The notes: generated by a model from the sequence alone, not told the origin. DNA of 20,976 nt from a virus (IMGVR_UViG_3300045999_005452:1-20976); one strand, 5' to 3'. Positions 3,022 through 20,976 are shown, numbered from the stretch's first letter. Numbers and translations are program-made.

Positions 3022-3355
3022 TGGCTGCTGCCTGTTGCTGTGGTCGTCGCATCGTCACGTAAACCGCCCGCGTGTTCATCGCCGCCAGCATCAACTGCCG
3101 CCGCGCATTCTGCACCGCATCAAAGCCGCTGGCCTCGAGCCAGTTCACGCCGCCCGGTCCATTCCTCCGGCAGAGCTCCAGCTGCTGCAGCAGATCCCCA
3201 ATCTCCTGGATCAGCTTGTCCAGCTGGTTGCCCTTTTCGTCGATCGCGTCGCTGTAGAGATGGCAAGGATCGACCGTCTGAGTATCGGACGTAGTCGATG
3301 GTGTTGCCGGCCCCTGTTGTAATGGTGTCTGCTCTGGTGACGTAAATTCTGTCAT
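3014..3355 (-). CDS. Small hypothetical phage protein with coiled-coil segment
   Basis: A 113-residue protein of unknown family. The first 30 residues are Thr/Pro/Gln-rich (low complexity); a helical segment follows (AIDEKGNQLDKLIQEIGDLLQQLEL, about 36-60) with coiled-coil character and a C-terminal helix (RQLMLAAMNTRAVYVTMRRP). The ATG at 3355 is preceded by GGAGG and GGAG. It overlaps the upstream membrane-protein frame by 236 bases and the next gene by eight bases. The possible coiled coil could pair with a partner membrane protein, but that is inference. Confidence 0.65.
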   Translation of the reverse strand: MTEFTSPEQTPLQQGPATPSTTSDTQTVDPCHLYSDAIDEKGNQLDKLIQEIGDLLQQLELCRRNGPGGVNWLEASGFDAVQNARRQLMLAAMNTRAVYVTMRRPQQQAAANE

Positions 3356-3590
3356 ACTCCTGCACCTCCGTTGATTGTTTCGCCTCGACCATGACCCGCA
3401 GCTGCTCATTCACGCGCACCGCATGGACGCCCCAGCAGCTCAGCACACCGGGAGCCAGCACCAGCAGCGCTCGACTGAGAGCCACCGTGACGATGCTCTG
3501 CGGAGTGATCCGAAACACCGCCACGCCGAGGCCAAAACAGGCCCAGCCCACAGACATTGCCTGCCAGAATTCGCCACTTAGATCAGCCAT
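3120..3590 (-). CDS. Membrane protein with one or two N-terminal helices, long 3' overlap
   Basis: A 156-residue protein. Residues about 11-27 (MSVGWACFGLGVAVFRI) and 33-55 (IVTVALSRALLVLAPGVLSCW) are hydrophobic, likely one or two membrane helices, followed by a polar segment with EYDRIYVTRADTITTG (79-92). GGGG seven bases upstream of the ATG at 3590 supports the start. The last 78 codons overlap the next gene in another frame. Coding quality (GC-ending codons) favours this frame down to about 3260 and the next frame below that, so the true C-terminus may be the part after residue 110, or a fusion by frameshift. Possible holin or lysis regulator. Confidence 0.55.
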   Translation of the reverse strand: MADLSGEFWQAMSVGWACFGLGVAVFRITPQSIVTVALSRALLVLAPGVLSCWGVHAVRVNEQLRVMVEAKQSTEVQEYDRIYVTRADTITTGAGNTIDYVRYSDGRSLPSLQRRDRRKGQPAGQADPGDWGSAAAAGALPEEWTGRRELARGQRL

Positions 3591-3802
3591 GATAACCCCA
3601 GACATACTGCGAGGACGACGATTGACAGCGCGATGGCGAGGACCACCCACACCCACGCGCTGCCAGTGTAATCCAAAAACGTCTGAGCAGTCTCCTCGGA
3701 GATGTCAGCCTCGAGGCCGGGCGCGTCGATCTGGATGGCTCGCTGCCTGCGAGTCGTCTGTCGTTTAGCCGGCTGCTTTGGCTGCTGCTCATCATCGCTC
3801 AT
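3578..3802 (-). CDS. Small C-terminally anchored membrane protein
   Basis: A 74-residue protein with a polar, basic N-terminal half (residues 1-46, including KRQTTRRQRA) and one C-terminal transmembrane helix (about 49-74, AWVWVVLAIALSIVVLAVCLG). The topology is that of a tail-anchored protein. The ATG at 3802 has GAGG about eight bases upstream; an in-frame ATG at 3907 would add 35 residues, but that segment uses AT-ending codons and looks non-coding. Together with the next gene, it is a candidate holin, antiholin or spanin, by size and place only. Confidence 0.65.
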   Translation of the reverse strand: MSDDEQQPKQPAKRQTTRRQRAIQIDAPGLEADISEETAQTFLDYTGSAWVWVVLAIALSIVVLAVCLGLSWLI

Positions 3803-3900
3803 TCTGCTGCCTCTTGGCGTGCCTGACAATATGCACGCCGCAGATAGTACACCGCACCAGGGTAAACCCCAACCACGGAAACAGGATCGCCCAATATCAT
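3799..3900 (-). CDS. Possible micro-ORF, 33 aa
   Basis: The ATG at 3900 overlaps the upstream stop as ATGA, and its TGA overlaps the next ATG as ATGA, the spacing this operon uses almost everywhere. The product would start MILGDPVSVVG and end RQEAAE. GC-ending codons are only about 45 percent, well below the rest of the window. The competing frame (continuing after the previous stop) has about 70 percent GC-ending codons and encodes RCTICGVHIVRH, a possible zinc knuckle, but lacks an ATG or GTG start near its beginning. Only one, or neither, need be real. Confidence 0.35.
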   Translation of the reverse strand: MILGDPVSVVGVYPGAVYYLRRAYCQARQEAAE

Positions 3901-4727
3901 GGGCCACCCGTGCCCGGATCTGGCACTGGCTCGCCGGTCGTCAGCATCATCGTCAGCCGCGTGTCAGCAGATCCGAGATCGACGATCGCCCTCGCGTCTG
4001 CGTCCGTCAGGGCTGAGCCCGTGTCCTCGACGAAGAACTGGATCGGGCTGGTTGTCCCCCAGCCGCTGACCGCCAGCAGCTCGTCTACAATGGCCAACAC
4101 GTCGAAGGACAGAAACGGCCCCGTGCTGGTCGTCGCGTCCTCGTATGCTGTCGTCTTGGTGCGGTTGTCGAGCGTGTCCCAATCGGTGATGTTGCCCGAC
4201 TGGTCGCCGCTGTACTTGATCCCGTAGACTCTGATTGTGCGGTTGGGTATCCACTGCACCAGCCTCAGCACCAGCATCGCATACTGCAGATCGGCAGTGC
4301 TGGCAAGGTCCGCTGCCGGCGTCGTCAGGTAGGCCCGGAATTCGTAGGGGTTGGCGCCGGCCCGCGTCGTGAGATCGTCGAAGCCGATCGATGGCAGGGC
4401 CGTCTGGAGAAAGTCCTCATCTGCTCCGGCGTCGCCGCTGTAGGCATGGCCGCTCACCGTCTCACTCAGCCGGGGCCCGTCCTTGCTCGCATAAAACACA
4501 TCAGCCGCACCGCTCACCACCCGCAGCCAGAGCGTGAGACCGGCGAGGGGCCGAGCGAACTGGTACTGCCCGGCGTCGATCGGCGAGCCTGCAGCTGCGG
4601 CCGCGGGCTCAGCCACCGCCCAGGCGAATTCGACTGAGCCAGTTCCGTCGATGGTGAAGCTGAACAGTTCTGCCGACAGCCAGTCCGTCGGGCTCCACCA
4701 GTCGGAATCGAGGGCGTGCTCAATCAT
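3897..4727 (-). CDS. Tail protein, aromatic-rich (unknown family)
   Basis: A 276-residue acidic protein with many Trp and Tyr (DSDWWSPTDWLSAELFSF at 8-25) and beta-strand pattern, without signal peptide or membrane segment. By position it is the last component of the tail-tip cluster. The end is Pro/Gly-rich (PVPDPGTGGP). It starts with an ATGA overlap with the previous gene. After its TGA stop the same frame continues open for 34 more codons containing CxxC, so a readthrough form is conceivable (see findings). Confidence 0.65.
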   Translation of the reverse strand: MIEHALDSDWWSPTDWLSAELFSFTIDGTGSVEFAWAVAEPAAAAAGSPIDAGQYQFARPLAGLTLWLRVVSGAADVFYASKDGPRLSETVSGHAYSGDAGADEDFLQTALPSIGFDDLTTRAGANPYEFRAYLTTPAADLASTADLQYAMLVLRLVQWIPNRTIRVYGIKYSGDQSGNITDWDTLDNRTKTTAYEDATTSTGPFLSFDVLAIVDELLAVSGWGTTSPIQFFVEDTGSALTDADARAIVDLGSADTRLTMMLTTGEPVPDPGTGGP

Positions 4728-16070: not shown

Positions 16071-16355
16071 TCAGTCGTCAACGGGCGAAACAGGATCGCC
16101 CGATTTCAGCTCGCAGATATACGATCTGTCCACCCGGTACTGGCCGCAGTTGAGGCAGCTGGTACGCCGCAGCAGAACAGCCGTGTATGGCCGACCCTCG
16201 GGGCTGATGCCATCGCCGTCGATCCGCTGGGGTGCGTCGCTGTACTCGGCCCGCTCCGTGCTCTGGCATGTGGGGCAGTGTGAGACCCTCACGTCCACGA
16301 CAACACGGTCCCGCGTCTTGCTGCCCTTGGGTCGCCCTGGTTTTCCCTCGCTCAT
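16071..16355 (-). CDS. Small zinc-ribbon protein with AT-hook-like N-terminus
   Basis: A 94-residue protein with two CxxC knuckles, Cys27-x-x-Cys30 and Cys67-x-x-Cys70, predicted to bind one zinc ion as a zinc ribbon. Residues 7-13 read GRPKGSK, similar to an AT-hook, so DNA binding is plausible. The start at 16355 overlaps the terminase stop as ATGA and has GGAGGT six bases upstream. Because it sits between the large terminase and the gpW homologue it may assist packaging or DNA recognition, or be a transcription-related protein; the sequence does not tell which. It could substitute for a small terminase, but that is speculative. Confidence 0.8.
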   Translation of the reverse strand: MSEGKPGRPKGSKTRDRVVVDVRVSHCPTCQSTERAEYSDAPQRIDGDGISPEGRPYTAVLLRRTSCLNCGQYRVDRSYICELKSGDPVSPVDD

Positions 16356-18478
16356 GTCCTTACCTCCGTTCGTCGTTTGATTCGTCGCCGCCGCTTCTGC
16401 TCCGTGGCCTCACTCACCTCGGGCACATTGCAGCCGAGCACTGATGCCAGCACCAGGCACCCGACTGAGCTGTCCAGCCAGTGATTCTCCGCCCCGACCC
16501 TCAGCCGCCACTCCATCACCGTCCGCCCTCGGCCTTCGGTCTGGGTGGCATACTCGCTCGTGAGATGCTCGGAGTACAGCCGATGCATCCCGTCGTAGAG
16601 TGTGATGGCTCCGGCGTGACCAATCCGCACAGCCATCTGGTCATGCCATGCCGTTTTCCAGTAGTTCACATCTGAGAGGCAATTGCGAATGTCGCCGGCT
16701 TGCTTGCGCTTCACAACCACCCAGCCGAGGCCGACTCGTGAGCCGGGGTCATATTTGCGTTCCGAGATCGGCTTGTCTGCCGCCCGATAGCTCTGGCCCA
16801 TGTACGCCAGCAGCTGCTGCCGATGGTTGCTGCGACTGAGTGCCGACTTCACCAAATCGGTTTTCCAGCGTGCGTCGAAGGCCACCAGTTCGGGCGTCAT
16901 GTGGCCGCCGTCCTCGCTCCGCCAGTCCTGAGCGAATAACCACTCACAAAACTCCGTGATGCCTTGGCTGAGAGCCGCCATGTCGCCGGCTTGCGGGTAC
17001 TTGTGGCTGAGCTTTCGCCGCGCTTCCTTGAGCGTGAAGTAGGGGTCGTCCTGCTCGGGGAATGTCCCGTATCGCATCACATGCAGAGAGCCATCCTCAC
17101 GGGCCGCGGCGACCGTGTAGTAGAGCAGAGTCTGCTGGACGTCCACCATGGCCACCAGCTTGTGGAACCCCTTCGGGGCCACCCCTCGAGGGAGCTTCAC
17201 CCGCCGACTGTCGGCGATGTCCTGAGCCGTGAGCCATGTTCTCGATTCGTTCTCGTCCTTCTGGGGCTCGTTCTGCAGCTCGCTGAAGAACCCGCTCCGG
17301 CTGCGATAGTACCACTCCATCCCATGCTGCAGAGCCGAGATCTCGCCGCTGCTGGCGCTGTACCTCGCCGGCCAGGCAACCTCGCTGCCGGAGTCCATGG
17401 CCGCCCGATGCTCGCGATAGAACCGGGTCGCGTCGCGAATGTCGCCGTGCTCCCGGAGTGATGCCGCCCGGATGTCGCCGTATTGTGACCACAGCTGCAT
17501 GGCCGCGTCGTCGGGCATCTGGCGGATAAAGGCTCTGCGTATCCCGCACCAGTCGGGGTTGATCTCGCGGTTGAGCAGCCTGTCGGCTGCGTCGTCGCTG
17601 CGGATCACAGTGCACGTCACCAGTGCGCAGAATGGCGTGTCCGGGCCTCGCATCCCCACGAGGTCATTCTGAATAACCTCGGTGCGTCCGTGGCATTGGA
17701 TGGCGGACAGGGCCGACTCGCGGGTCTGGAAATCATCGCACAGCAGCATCGAGGGCCGGATGACTCGACCGTCTGGCAGCGTATGCAGCGCACCGCGAAC
17801 AGCCTCCATCAGGCCGCTGGCCGTGACGATCGCGCCCGTCCCCGCGAATCCGTCGAGCGTGGCGAATACTGCCGTCTTGGTCGAGATCTGAATGTTAGTG
17901 TTCTGCCCCCTGTAGAGCTGGCCCTTGGCTCGGTTGCTGATCCCCTCCAGCTTGCGGATCGGGTAAGCCACCTCCGGCCAGAGATCGTAGAGCATGGGAT
18001 TGTGCGACCACTCTGTGACGATGTCCCGCAGCAGCTTTTCGGCCTTCCCCGCGTTGGCCGCCGCGATCATGCTGAATGGGTGCAGCCGCTTCACGATGGC
18101 CCAGATCATAGCCCGCATGATGATCGTCGACTTGCCGGTCCCTCGTGGCATACCGACAGCCCGGAACCCACCCCGCTCAATGACCCGCTGCAGCTCCTCG
18201 ATCAGCACCAGATGATCGTCACACCAGCCGAGCCTGAAGGCCTGCGGAAAGCACCGCTCGAGGAACGTCCGCAGATCCGCCTCGCACGCCTCACGCAGAA
18301 CCGGGTCGCCCACTGGCGGAATGTCGCCGATGTCTCGGGCCGAGTTGCTGACCTGCTTGGACCTCGCCGCCGCCTGAGCCTTCAACCGCTCATAGGCTGC
18401 TGTGGCCCTGTCGCGCACCTCGTCCGCTGAGCGCGGGGCCGCCGCTCGCCGCTTGCGTGGGGCCGTGGCCGTGCTCAC
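16352..18478 (-). CDS. Phage terminase large subunit, GpA-like
   Basis: ATP-driven DNA packaging motor and nuclease of about 708 residues, close to lambda gpA (641) plus a longer N-terminus. The ATPase half shows Walker A GMPRGTGKST (Lys about 116) and Walker B PSMLLCDD (about 243-248). The nuclease half has acidic positions expected of the GpA family: VDVQ (Asp about 445), VAFDAR (about 534) and NHWLDSS (about 668), the last being a family hallmark near the C-terminus. The start is uncertain. GTG at 18478 overlaps the thioredoxin stop as GTGA, matching the coupling used throughout; an in-frame ATG at 18538 would add 20 residues and overlap the upstream gene by 64 bases. The N-terminus is basic and Ala-rich and could contact DNA. 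No small terminase partner is recognisable nearby. Confidence 0.95.
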   Translation of the reverse strand: MSTATAPRKRRAAAPRSADEVRDRATAAYERLKAQAAARSKQVSNSARDIGDIPPVGDPVLREACEADLRTFLERCFPQAFRLGWCDDHLVLIEELQRVIERGGFRAVGMPRGTGKSTIIMRAMIWAIVKRLHPFSMIAAANAGKAEKLLRDIVTEWSHNPMLYDLWPEVAYPIRKLEGISNRAKGQLYRGQNTNIQISTKTAVFATLDGFAGTGAIVTASGLMEAVRGALHTLPDGRVIRPSMLLCDDFQTRESALSAIQCHGRTEVIQNDLVGMRGPDTPFCALVTCTVIRSDDAADRLLNREINPDWCGIRRAFIRQMPDDAAMQLWSQYGDIRAASLREHGDIRDATRFYREHRAAMDSGSEVAWPARYSASSGEISALQHGMEWYYRSRSGFFSELQNEPQKDENESRTWLTAQDIADSRRVKLPRGVAPKGFHKLVAMVDVQQTLLYYTVAAAREDGSLHVMRYGTFPEQDDPYFTLKEARRKLSHKYPQAGDMAALSQGITEFCEWLFAQDWRSEDGGHMTPELVAFDARWKTDLVKSALSRSNHRQQLLAYMGQSYRAADKPISERKYDPGSRVGLGWVVVKRKQAGDIRNCLSDVNYWKTAWHDQMAVRIGHAGAITLYDGMHRLYSEHLTSEYATQTEGRGRTVMEWRLRVGAENHWLDSSVGCLVLASVLGCNVPEVSEATEQKRRRRIKRRTEVRT

Positions 18479-18882
18479 TGACCCCGGAGCCTCTGGAGCT
18501 CCGCCGCGATCTGTGCTGGTGTTGCGCCGCCTCGCCATCGTGCCACCGGCATTCTGTCAGATTTCCGCACCAGCCACACCGTCGGAATGGATGTTACTGC
18601 CGGCACCGTGACCGGCTTGCCTCCGGATTGTACCACACGGGCCCGCCAATACTCCGGGCTGCGGTCCATGTCGGTCTGTGTGACCTTCAGCAGCTGCTCG
18701 ACCTGCGGGAGGGTGTTGGCTTTGTATCGCTGGCAGGGCCCGCACCAACTGGCAGTGAAGAGCACAGCGTAGTAGTCGTCGGCCTGCTCCTCAAATGGTG
18801 CCGGCTGTGGATGTGCGACCGACACACGGAATCGCCATTCGTCCGCGATCAGAAGGGCCATTGCTGCCAGTGCTGCGATCAT
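18475..18882 (-). CDS. Exported thioredoxin-fold protein (WCGPC)
   Basis: A 135-residue thioredoxin-like disulfide oxidoreductase. The classic WCGPC active site is at residues 46-50, in the context LFTASWCGPCQRYK, and the cis-proline loop is SIPT with Pro100. A hydrophobic N-terminus (about 1-13, IAALAAMALLI) suggests a signal peptide or anchor, so it probably acts in the periplasm or at the membrane rather than in phage DNA replication. I chose the ATG at 18882 because it overlaps the protease stop as ATGA and has GGGGGT seven bases upstream; an in-frame ATG at 18906 would add eight residues and hide the signal peptide. The coupling to a cysteine protease suggests a redox partner, but this is inference. 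Confidence 0.9.
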   Translation of the reverse strand: MIAALAAMALLIADEWRFRVSVAHPQPAPFEEQADDYYAVLFTASWCGPCQRYKANTLPQVEQLLKVTQTDMDRSPEYWRARVVQSGGKPVTVPAVTSIPTVWLVRKSDRMPVARWRGGATPAQIAAELQRLRGQ

Positions 18883-19673
18883 TGTGCTACCCCCGCGATT
18901 GGACAAACGGCATCATCGAATACAGCCTTGCGTCCACGCAAGATCCCGTATCCCTTGTCGCCCCACGTCGGGCCCCAGCTGTTGACAATACCCCAGCAGA
19001 GCTCGCCGTCGAGAATGAGTGCGTCCACGATCGCCACCTGATGGCCCCACCAGTTGAAACCTGCGGAGATCGGATAGCCGCTGAGCACCATGGTCGCTGC
19101 CTGCATCATGTTCCGTGGCTCAACCTCGATCCAGTCCGTCGCGCGATACTTGCGGGCCGCCAACTGGTTGCCTTGTGTAGCATAGCGTCGCTCGATGGCT
19201 CGCTCCGGCCAGTATTGCTGGGGCACCGCGCCGTGCTCCCGTAGCCACTTGAGGGCGTCGCCGCCCCAGCCGCCCACGTTCCTGTAGCCTTTGATCTGAG
19301 CTGCCACGCTGGCGGGGCTCAGCCTCACCGGTGTCTGGTTGGCCCTGAGTATTGCGAGCTCGAGGCAGTAGACCGTGGCAAAGGCCCAGCAGTAGTTGGT
19401 TTGCCCTTGATCCTTACAGCCCCAGTCGTGCTGTCGGATCATGTCGGAGATCCGGCTCTTGTATTTCTCGGCGTCGCGGATGCTGGCCTTTATTTCAGCC
19501 ATGGTCATCGTCCGCATACTGGTCGGGTATGGCATGGCTGACGATCCGTAGCCGAAGCCGCCGGCGTTGGGTCGGTCCGCCATGTCGAGGCCTCGGGAGC
19601 CTCCGGCCCAGACTGACTCGGGCGTCGAGTCGTCGATGATGATCGCGCCTGCCGGGATGCTGCTGCTGCTCAT
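18879..19673 (-). CDS. Papain-like (C1 family) cysteine protease
   Basis: A 264-residue protein with a complete papain-type active site. Counting from the ATG at 19673, Gln89 (oxyanion hole) is six residues before Cys95 in QTNYCWAF, His211 is in GHQVAIVDA and Asn231 in VNSWGPTWG, with the downstream GYGIL strand also conserved. The catalytic domain spans about 80-264. The roughly 80-residue N-terminal part is Ser/Gly-rich and then helical; it is not a clear ERFNIN propeptide, and there is no signal peptide. An in-frame GTG lies one codon upstream, but the ATG overlaps the previous stop (TGATG) and has a GGGGG Shine-Dalgarno. The S49 protease further along the operon is the evident head maturation enzyme, so this one probably has another job: host envelope or protein cleavage, exit, or virion processing. 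The chemistry is confident, the substrate unknown. Confidence 0.9.
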   Translation of the reverse strand: MSSSSIPAGAIIIDDSTPESVWAGGSRGLDMADRPNAGGFGYGSSAMPYPTSMRTMTMAEIKASIRDAEKYKSRISDMIRQHDWGCKDQGQTNYCWAFATVYCLELAILRANQTPVRLSPASVAAQIKGYRNVGGWGGDALKWLREHGAVPQQYWPERAIERRYATQGNQLAARKYRATDWIEVEPRNMMQAATMVLSGYPISAGFNWWGHQVAIVDALILDGELCWGIVNSWGPTWGDKGYGILRGRKAVFDDAVCPIAGVAQ

Positions 19674-20476
19674 CACTGCCCCCTTGCTGCCTTGAGAGCC
19701 GCCAGCAGCTGGGGCTGCGACTCGATCGGGATGACCGTGGCGTCCGTGCCACGGACAATCACCGCTTGTGGTCCATCACCCAAATCCGCTTTGACGTCTT
19801 GCCAGAGCTTCCGCCAGATCGGCGGGGCCGAATCGAGTCCGTCCGACTCGATGGCCGACCGATCCCAGAGCCTCCATTCCGCTCGTCCTGCATCCTGCAC
19901 ACAGTTGGCATCCAGCCACTGTCTCACCGCCTGCGAGTTGACCGCCTGCAGTGCCGCTGGCGGTGCGTCCTGATCGACCAGCAGCAACACCCGCAGATCC
20001 GCATCCGCCGGCTGTGGTGGCTGTGGTGGCGATGGCCCCGGCCCAGGGGGAGGAATCGGGCCAGAGCCATCGACCACCAGCTGTACGATCTGCCGCTCTG
20101 CGGGGTCGCTGAATCCGTATGGGACCACCACCAAAGTGACATTGCCGGGAGCTTGAGACTCGATCGAGTAGATCCACGGATCAGAGATTCGACGGGTCGT
20201 GATCTGCCCGTTGCCCCCGGCAAATCTGCCGCGATAGACTGCCGTCTCCCCCTGCTGCAACTGCTGCTCACTGATGCTAACCACACCCTCCGGGATTGCG
20301 ATCAGCAGACACTGGCGCTTTCCGCTGACCAGCAGCCACTCCTCGGGCCTGATCCGTATGGGGCCCGGCGCCACGTCCTGTGGCTGTGGAGTAACTGCTG
20401 GCACTGGCGATGGAAAGACCAGAGCCGGGTCATCGAGCAGCAGCAGCAGCAGACAGAGAGAGAGCAGCGCTGTCAT
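19673..20476 (-). CDS. Secreted two-domain protein with proline-rich hinge
   Basis: A 267-residue protein. The N-terminus (about 1-16) is a run of leucines typical of a signal peptide or membrane anchor, followed by a Pro-rich stretch, so export across the inner membrane is likely. Residues about 40-135 look beta-rich. A proline/glycine hinge at about 139-155 (PIPPPGPGPSPPQPPQP) leads to a C-terminal domain of about 110 residues starting LRVLLLVDQD, with an alternating beta/alpha pattern ending in an amphipathic helix. That last part loosely resembles the end of thioredoxin-like domains but lacks a CxxC, so the assignment is tentative. The start ATG overlaps the upstream stop as ATGA, and the stop overlaps the protease start as TGATG. 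Placement beside a protease and a thioredoxin suggests a shared extracytoplasmic role. Confidence 0.7.
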   Translation of the reverse strand: MTALLSLCLLLLLLDDPALVFPSPVPAVTPQPQDVAPGPIRIRPEEWLLVSGKRQCLLIAIPEGVVSISEQQLQQGETAVYRGRFAGGNGQITTRRISDPWIYSIESQAPGNVTLVVVPYGFSDPAERQIVQLVVDGSGPIPPPGPGPSPPQPPQPADADLRVLLLVDQDAPPAALQAVNSQAVRQWLDANCVQDAGRAEWRLWDRSAIESDGLDSAPPIWRKLWQDVKADLGDGPQAVIVRGTDATVIPIESQPQLLAALKAARGQ

Positions 20477-20856
20477 GTGTCGTCGCCTGTGTCCACAGCC
20501 TTGGCGGAGAACCCGGCAGACTCGACCACACTGGCCGGCTGAGTCAGACAGTCCGCGATGGTTGCGTCGGCGATCTGCTCAGCCTCCAGCCTGCTGATCT
20601 TGTGGCCTTGACGTCTGGCCGCCTTTGTGGCCGCGTTGGTCATGCGTCGCTTGAGTCGCTGCGGGTTGCGGGCCCGCATCGTCTGCACTCGCGACTGGAC
20701 CTGCTCCGGGGTGGTGTCGTCATTGTGGAACAAACAGTTGAGAGCCTCGGTAATGATCGGCACCAGCAGCGTCACCCACGCGAATCCGTAGGGCCCGTCG
20801 GCTGTTGGCATTTGCTGAGCCACGCGCTCAGCTGCGTTTTGGATTTCGTTCGGCAT
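20473..20856 (-). CDS. Hypothetical phage protein, first gene of the module
   Basis: A 127-residue protein whose family I do not recognise. The ATG at 20856 is preceded by GGAG with a 5-base spacer, a good ribosome binding site. Residues about 24-43 are hydrophobic (FAWVTLLVPIITEAL) and could be a membrane segment or a buried helix. The middle (about 55-90) is rich in Arg and Lys with helical character and could bind nucleic acid, and the tail is acidic. It occupies the position of a small terminase subunit in lambda-like modules, but I see no clear helix-turn-helix or other terminase small subunit signature, so that role is only a possibility. Its stop overlaps the next start by ATGA, so the two are probably translationally coupled. 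Confidence 0.75.
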   Translation of the reverse strand: MPNEIQNAAERVAQQMPTADGPYGFAWVTLLVPIITEALNCLFHNDDTTPEQVQSRVQTMRARNPQRLKRRMTNAATKAARRQGHKISRLEAEQIADATIADCLTQPASVVESAGFSAKAVDTGDDT

Positions 20857-20976
20857 GTCTACTCCATTGCAAATGTTGAGATTATCCCCGCAGTGAGATT
20901 ATCGCGAGCGGGAATGGTTTGCAAGCAAAACAAGAAAACTCAGGCGGAAAATATGGCACTTCCGAGGTTGCCCCTT
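20857..20976 (-). promoter_or_regulatory. Leader region upstream of the late operon, possible promoter
   Basis: This 120-base stretch is clearly more AT-rich than the rest of the window and has no credible ORF. On the minus strand it carries two GATAAT hexamers (plus-strand 20898-20903 and 20881-20886) that could act as -10 elements. Possible -35 partners for the upstream one are TTGCTT (20923-20928, 19-base spacer) and TTGCAA (20919-20924, 15-base spacer); neither spacing is the ideal 17, so this is a weak sigma70-type match. A small inverted repeat, TTTGC-AA-GCAAA, lies at 20918-20929. All genes to the left share this strand and no other sizeable gap exists, so this is the most likely place within the window for late-operon transcription to start. 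Initiation further right, outside the window, cannot be excluded. Confidence 0.35.
20877..20903. repeat. Direct repeat TGAGATTATC x2, period 17 bp
   Basis: The exact 10-mer TGAGATTATC occurs at 20877-20886 and again at 20894-20903, a period of 17 bases (about 1.6 helical turns). On the coding strand it reads GATAATCTCA. It lies about 21 to 47 bases upstream of the first start codon of the operon. It may be a pair of regulator half-sites or two overlapping -10 elements; the sequence alone does not decide. Confidence 0.5.

Follow-up and report, generated by a model that had tools for sequence, protein, structure and literature searches.

A predicted papain-like protease and an exported thioredoxin in a conserved gene module of planctomycete phages, with a possible role in lysis or envelope breaching

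Four tightly packed genes, g1 to g4, lie on the minus strand directly upstream of a GpA-type terminase in a virus record of IMG/VR (20,976 bases, analyzed in full and called the window below), and sequence comparisons indicate that they are a conserved module. We give about an even chance to the reading that this predicted module serves lysis or the breaching of the envelope in phages of Planctomycetota. The first-pass annotation of the same DNA had proposed an accessory cassette acting on the envelope, with lysis among the options; our results support that part and allow a more specific reading, lysis or envelope breaching, because holin genes occur near the module in four phage groups, no endolysin was found in the gene sets searched, the same gene order is present in planctomycete prophages, and the thioredoxin is fused to a protease in some relatives. 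The suggestion of an anti-defence device, made at the same time, gained no support.

Layout and conservation of the gene set

The first gene of the set, g1 (20473..20856, minus strand), codes for a small protein of 127 residues with one hydrophobic segment (approximately residues 24-44) and a basic C-terminal half, and it is counted into the same gene set as the three genes that follow. The product of g2 (19673..20476, minus strand; 267 residues) is a predicted exported protein, in which a signal-like N-terminus is followed by an Ig-like β sandwich, a proline hinge and a C-terminal thioredoxin-fold domain devoid of CxxC. Next come g3 (18879..19673, minus strand; 264 residues from the ATG at 19673), for a papain-like cysteine protease without signal peptide, and g4 (18475..18882, minus strand; 135 residues from an inner ATG at 18882), for an exported thioredoxin with a WCGPC motif. 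The genes are coupled by ATGA at 20473-20476 (g1/g2), TGATG at 19671-19675 (g2/g3) and ATGA at 18879-18882 (g3/g4), the last of these provided that g4 starts at the inner ATG, its longest frame running from a TTG at 18906. The positions given earlier for g2, g3 and g4 are borne out, as are the overlaps said to join them, with the same proviso for the start of g4. Outside the module, the neighboring gene (16352..18538, minus strand) codes for the large terminase subunit TerL of GpA type (PF20454, 3e-18; phrog_38, 8e-30); its annotated frame overlaps g4 by 64 nt, and the conserved part of the protein starts near residue 45.

A scan of 2.9 million viral contigs yielded 31 that carry the g3 papain family, some of them near-identical to one another. 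A g2-like gene is found directly upstream of the papain gene in 27 of the 28 contigs that reach far enough, those of a few most distant contigs being recognized by inspection and not by profile, and a thioredoxin gene lies directly downstream in 28 of the 31. Thioredoxin is absent from L042, L043 and L045, and the last of these also lacks g2. Where the thioredoxin is missing after the papain, its place is taken by a small exported protein whose cysteines are clustered (L042:7357-7941, and L070:2712-2954 of G008). The g1 family (alignment A3) comprises 11 sequences with 23-91% identity to the window protein and has no match in Pfam; in window-like groups g1 always directly precedes g2 where the contigs reach. 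Free variation of the neighbors in related phages and loss of the catalytic residues had been named at the outset as observations that would weaken the idea of a functional cassette; instead, gene order is kept and the residues are invariant.

The genes that flank the module differ markedly between phages. The head genes of the window include the GpA terminase, Phage_portal_2 and S49, and a GpA-type head is also present in G003, while those of G002 and G005 comprise TerL_ATPase/TerL_nuclease, Phage_portal, a Clp protease, Phage_capsid and Terminase_4. As the module is located beside unrelated sets of head genes, it moves as one unit between types of phage. The earlier remark that lambda-like phages carry the small terminase at this site holds in part: Terminase_4 precedes TerL in the sister group L109, and G002 and G005 encode it in a gene of its own; none of g1 to g4 has a small-terminase match, and the candidacy of g1 for that role was rejected given these separate genes. 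In G002, a secreted nuclease-like protein (L058:5379-5807; phrog endonuclease, 1e-9) is encoded just upstream of the module.

The ends of many independent contigs cluster 90-130 bases ahead of g1 (window 20856-20976; starts of L020-L029), and the conserved stretch at those ends reads ATATTTT..GCCTGAGTTT. L032 reads through this stretch, and G009 has an overlap of approximately 150 bases, with one mismatch, between its two termini. The shared ends look like a packaging site or a physical genome end of cos-like type.

The protease, the thioredoxin and their exported partner

On sequence criteria, g3 is a member of the Peptidase C1 family and a predicted protease. It matches Peptidase_C1 (PF00112) at 2e-13 with 51.2 bits for a cut-off of 20.7, its phmmer matches in the PDB are cysteine endopeptidases and cathepsin K, and comparison of the family profile with cathepsin K (6e-15) brings the catalytic residues into alignment. 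The papain active site proposed in the first-pass annotation proved right, including its numbering: Gln89, Cys95, His211 and Asn231, counted from the ATG, are invariant in an alignment of 17 sequences with identities down to 32%, in which the L047 row covers the C-terminal part only, all four catalytic residues included. Like the C1A enzymes (papain, cathepsins K, S, and L), g3 has the Gln/Cys/His/Asn set in register as well as an NSWG motif; unlike them, it is phage-encoded, has Thr at the position of Cys22 in nearly all relatives (QGxTNYC) and possesses a conserved N-terminal region of its own, of approximately 80 residues, with an IIDD motif. No g3 relative was detected among INPHARED phages at E 0.01. 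The papains of L015 and L016, generic distant C1 proteases in contigs devoid of the module, were rejected as module members, and weak matches in G217, G339, G366 and G050 were not counted, since these are probably generic C1 peptidases.

Hydropathy analyses indicate strongly hydrophobic N-termini on g2 and g4 in every full-length relative, and none on g3. For g4, the earlier description as a WCGPC thioredoxin with a hydrophobic N-terminus holds, with a match to Thioredoxin (PF00085) at 5e-6 and 26.8 bits, above the cut-off of 23.5. The CxxC motif is invariant in the 13 sequences of its family (alignment A5), and in INPHARED phages g4 was matched solely over the CxxC region, in roseophages. As in TlpA/DsbE-like exported thioredoxins, a signal-like N-terminus precedes a thioredoxin fold with WCGPC, from which g4 differs by being phage-encoded, linked to a protease, and fused to a secreted trypsin-like protease in two lineages, in opposite orders.

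These fusions take several forms. In L038 of G004, g4 consists of a signal sequence, Trypsin_2 and thioredoxin, both domains being above cut-off; in G206, Trypsin_2 is matched and the WCGPC thioredoxin region is recognized by the family profile, and the g4 proteins of L089 and L090 look like the trypsin-thioredoxin of G206. The reverse order, i.e., signal, thioredoxin, Trypsin_2, is found in L104 and L106. Altogether, secreted fusions of thioredoxin with trypsin-like domains, in either order, occur in phages and one prophage (L104:1548-2447, L106:3747-4622, L064:17576-18520, L075:39-1169). That g4 is fused to Trypsin_2 in both orders points to at least two independent events, and to a shared extracytoplasmic task in proteolysis for the exported thioredoxin.

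The leader and the proline hinge attributed to g2 in the first-pass annotation are both recovered, the former by hydropathy and the latter in an AlphaFold model (pLDDT 78), where the hinge is disordered and connects an Ig-like domain to a C-terminal domain of thioredoxin fold that has no CxxC. Residues 153-267 (domain pLDDT approximately 79-94) gave thioredoxin matches in Foldseek/VIA with Z of approximately 7.5, below the caution line of Z 8. The N-terminal domain resembles EhICP2, also below that line (Z 7.4, rmsd 2.7 over 78 residues). Inhibitors of chagasin type (I42) carry the loop motifs NPTTG, GxGG and RPW; in g2, inspection of alignment A4 by eye identified a GGxG-like loop only, NPTTG and RPW being absent. 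The idea that this domain inhibits the papain in the manner of chagasin was consequently rejected, the likeness being a hint at the level of the fold.

Among the terminase relatives (67-99% identity), a sister group of phages (L109-L112 and L124) is devoid of the papain module. At this site its members encode a lipoprotein-like product, a small exported protein, a peptidase candidate of 325 residues, an exported WCANC protein and the small terminase Terminase_4. The L109 member of the peptidase candidate matches no Pfam or PHROGs family. When its family, extended with L135, L139 and L142, was compared with the g3 family by profile, the probability was 84 (E 8e-6), with C, H and [N/Q]SWG in register and a score of 46.5, vs. 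12 for a reversed control and 14.5 for one shuffled control. The papain likeness thus depends on profile comparison, since the AlphaFold model of the L109 peptidase has a pLDDT of 34. In L109 (872-1846), L135, L139 and L142, these putative papain-like peptidases of 300-350 residues have Cys, His and QSWG instead of NSWG, and they adjoin exported Ig-like, Cys-rich or CxxC proteins. As the L109 group has both a divergent peptidase and an exported WCANC protein, the plan of a papain-like peptidase with an exported CxxC protein appears to persist across dissimilar proteins.

Hosts and the planctomycete cell wall

Searches of 392 Planctomycetota genomes returned two strong papain matches (G001 and G206), and 170 genomes of the order of G206 yielded five further papain loci; a pattern scan of 84,980 species returned one papain relative, in Planctomycetota. 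In G206 and in L089-L092, which are chromosome or MAG contigs, a g2-like gene and the papain gene are followed by a trypsin-thioredoxin or an exported thioredoxin, except in L092, where the stretch fetched contains no thioredoxin. In L088 (G463), g1 and g2 precede a stretch in which the search placed the papain and the gene caller did not select the papain frame; g1-like genes are present in L088, L091 and L092. In G206 the module is surrounded by phage genes (TerL_ATPase, Phage_portal_2, Phage_capsid_4). The G001 locus (L047), where a papain gene without the rest of the module lies between host genes and its product has a divergent N-terminus, was not accepted as a clear prophage. The presence of the module in six Planctomycetota chromosomes indicates that the hosts are planctomycetes, a host group that the first-pass annotation had not proposed.

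Cysteine-rich YTV proteins have been reported in cell-wall preparations of planctomycetes (PMC8567305). Such proteins were found in all seven papain-family genomes, compared with 42 of 392 in a draw from the phylum and none of 14 controls, an association confounded by ancestry because six of the seven YTV-bearing hosts come from one order. A link between this co-occurrence and a wall target is therefore suggestive only.

Planctomycetes possess peptidoglycan sacculi (PMC4432640), and mraY was above cut-off in five of the seven module hosts and GT51 in four. This contradicts the idea that the hosts have no peptidoglycan and that no endolysin is hence needed. Given these genes and the known sacculi, a peptidoglycan cutter is still expected in these phages, and it may be hidden among their proteins without known family. 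By the same token, the module may attack a protein layer in addition to peptidoglycan, or one linked with it.

Lysis and the alternative readings

In several relatives, the module is preceded by a holin gene. A holin is encoded directly upstream of g1 in G003 and G005 (PF23987, Phage_holin_10, at 1e-14 and 4e-10, respectively) and in G011 (PF05105, Phage_holin_4_1, 8e-25), and G004 has a phrog holin (7e-6) within 1 kb upstream, such that holin genes near the module are found in four phage groups and belong to three or more families. No identified holin adjoins g1 in the window or in G009. Two small membrane proteins without family match are encoded in the tail-side region of the window (3123-3605 and 3581-3907) and are candidates for a holin or antiholin. 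Endolysin families (amidase, lysozyme, transglycosylase, CHAP, NlpC/P60, M15, M23) were sought in five gene sets, namely those of the phages G002, G003 and G005, of the prophage region in G206, and of the window taken together with its near-complete relative G009, and none was found among the best 25 families per set, a search that a weak match or a new family could escape.

An unlikely possibility is that the real lysis enzyme is an unrecognized peptidoglycan hydrolase and the papain/thioredoxin set an accessory, e.g., one acting like spanins against an outer protein layer. The retention of mraY and often of GT51 by the hosts, together with the many phage proteins without family, would accommodate such an enzyme, yet it would have to have escaped detection in five gene sets with quite different structural genes. 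Ranking next and likewise improbable, modification of the envelope or superinfection exclusion would have the module expressed in lysogens or early in infection and altering surface proteins or receptors without lysis. Two exported proteins and the prophage copies in host chromosomes would agree with this, and a thioredoxin and a protease could remodel surface proteins; however, the module lies beside late genes and holins, no other lysis enzyme was found, and retention of the plan by the sister group, with another peptidase, suggests that the task is essential and not optional. Least likely is a role in entry, whereby the papain, in or with the virion, would cut a wall or envelope protein while the exported partners protect or re-form the envelope, since a protease suited to a protein-rich wall, its lack of a signal peptide and the location of the module with head genes would fit, but the signal-like N-termini make g2 and g4 poor virion parts, holins lie upstream in four groups, and the set moves between unrelated head modules.

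If the module serves lysis or envelope breaching, g2 and g4 would be exported across the inner membrane late in infection. The exported thioredoxin would then reduce disulfides of envelope proteins, and g2, whose thioredoxin-fold domain has no CxxC, might assist in the manner of a binding partner or a chaperone. The reducing cytoplasm would keep the papain active up to the opening of the membrane by a holin, and once released the enzyme would cut the loosened envelope protein, leading to lysis. Proteolysis and disulfide reduction would thereby replace the cutting of peptidoglycan by endolysins, and the main substrate might be a cysteine-rich YTV wall protein or a protein attached to peptidoglycan. 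That planctomycete phages exit by reducing and proteolyzing a disulfide-rich protein wall, and not by cutting peptidoglycan, is put forward tentatively. With similar reserve, we propose that this exit combines an exported thioredoxin, at times fused to a trypsin-like protease, with a papain released by a holin, and that the plan survives the replacement of the papain by a distant peptidase.

Holin-endolysin cassettes of tailed phages offer a close parallel in several respects: in several relatives a holin gene stands directly upstream, the enzyme, of lytic type, has no signal peptide and would need the holin to leave the cytoplasm, and the genes are swapped between unrelated phages. The module differs in that a papain-like protease takes the place of the peptidoglycan hydrolase, none of which was recognized, and two exported thioredoxin-fold partners are not known as a regular component of such cassettes. 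Papain-like cysteine peptidases that open a non-standard wall are known from viruses of methanogens, in which PeiW and PeiP (C71) cut isopeptide bonds in pseudomurein (PMC10318531); in contrast, g3 is a member of C1 (PF00112) and is accompanied by exported redox partners. No account of a papain/thioredoxin module was found in the open literature searched, where absence is no proof.

The nature of the planctomycete wall, protein or peptidoglycan, has been disputed for decades, and how phages escape from these cells appears largely unstudied. A module combining a papain with an exported thioredoxin would reveal what must break to open a planctomycete cell, and it would supply an enzyme tool kit for bacteria that are hard to lyse. 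It would also extend the idea of the lysis enzyme from peptidoglycan cutters to protein cutters.
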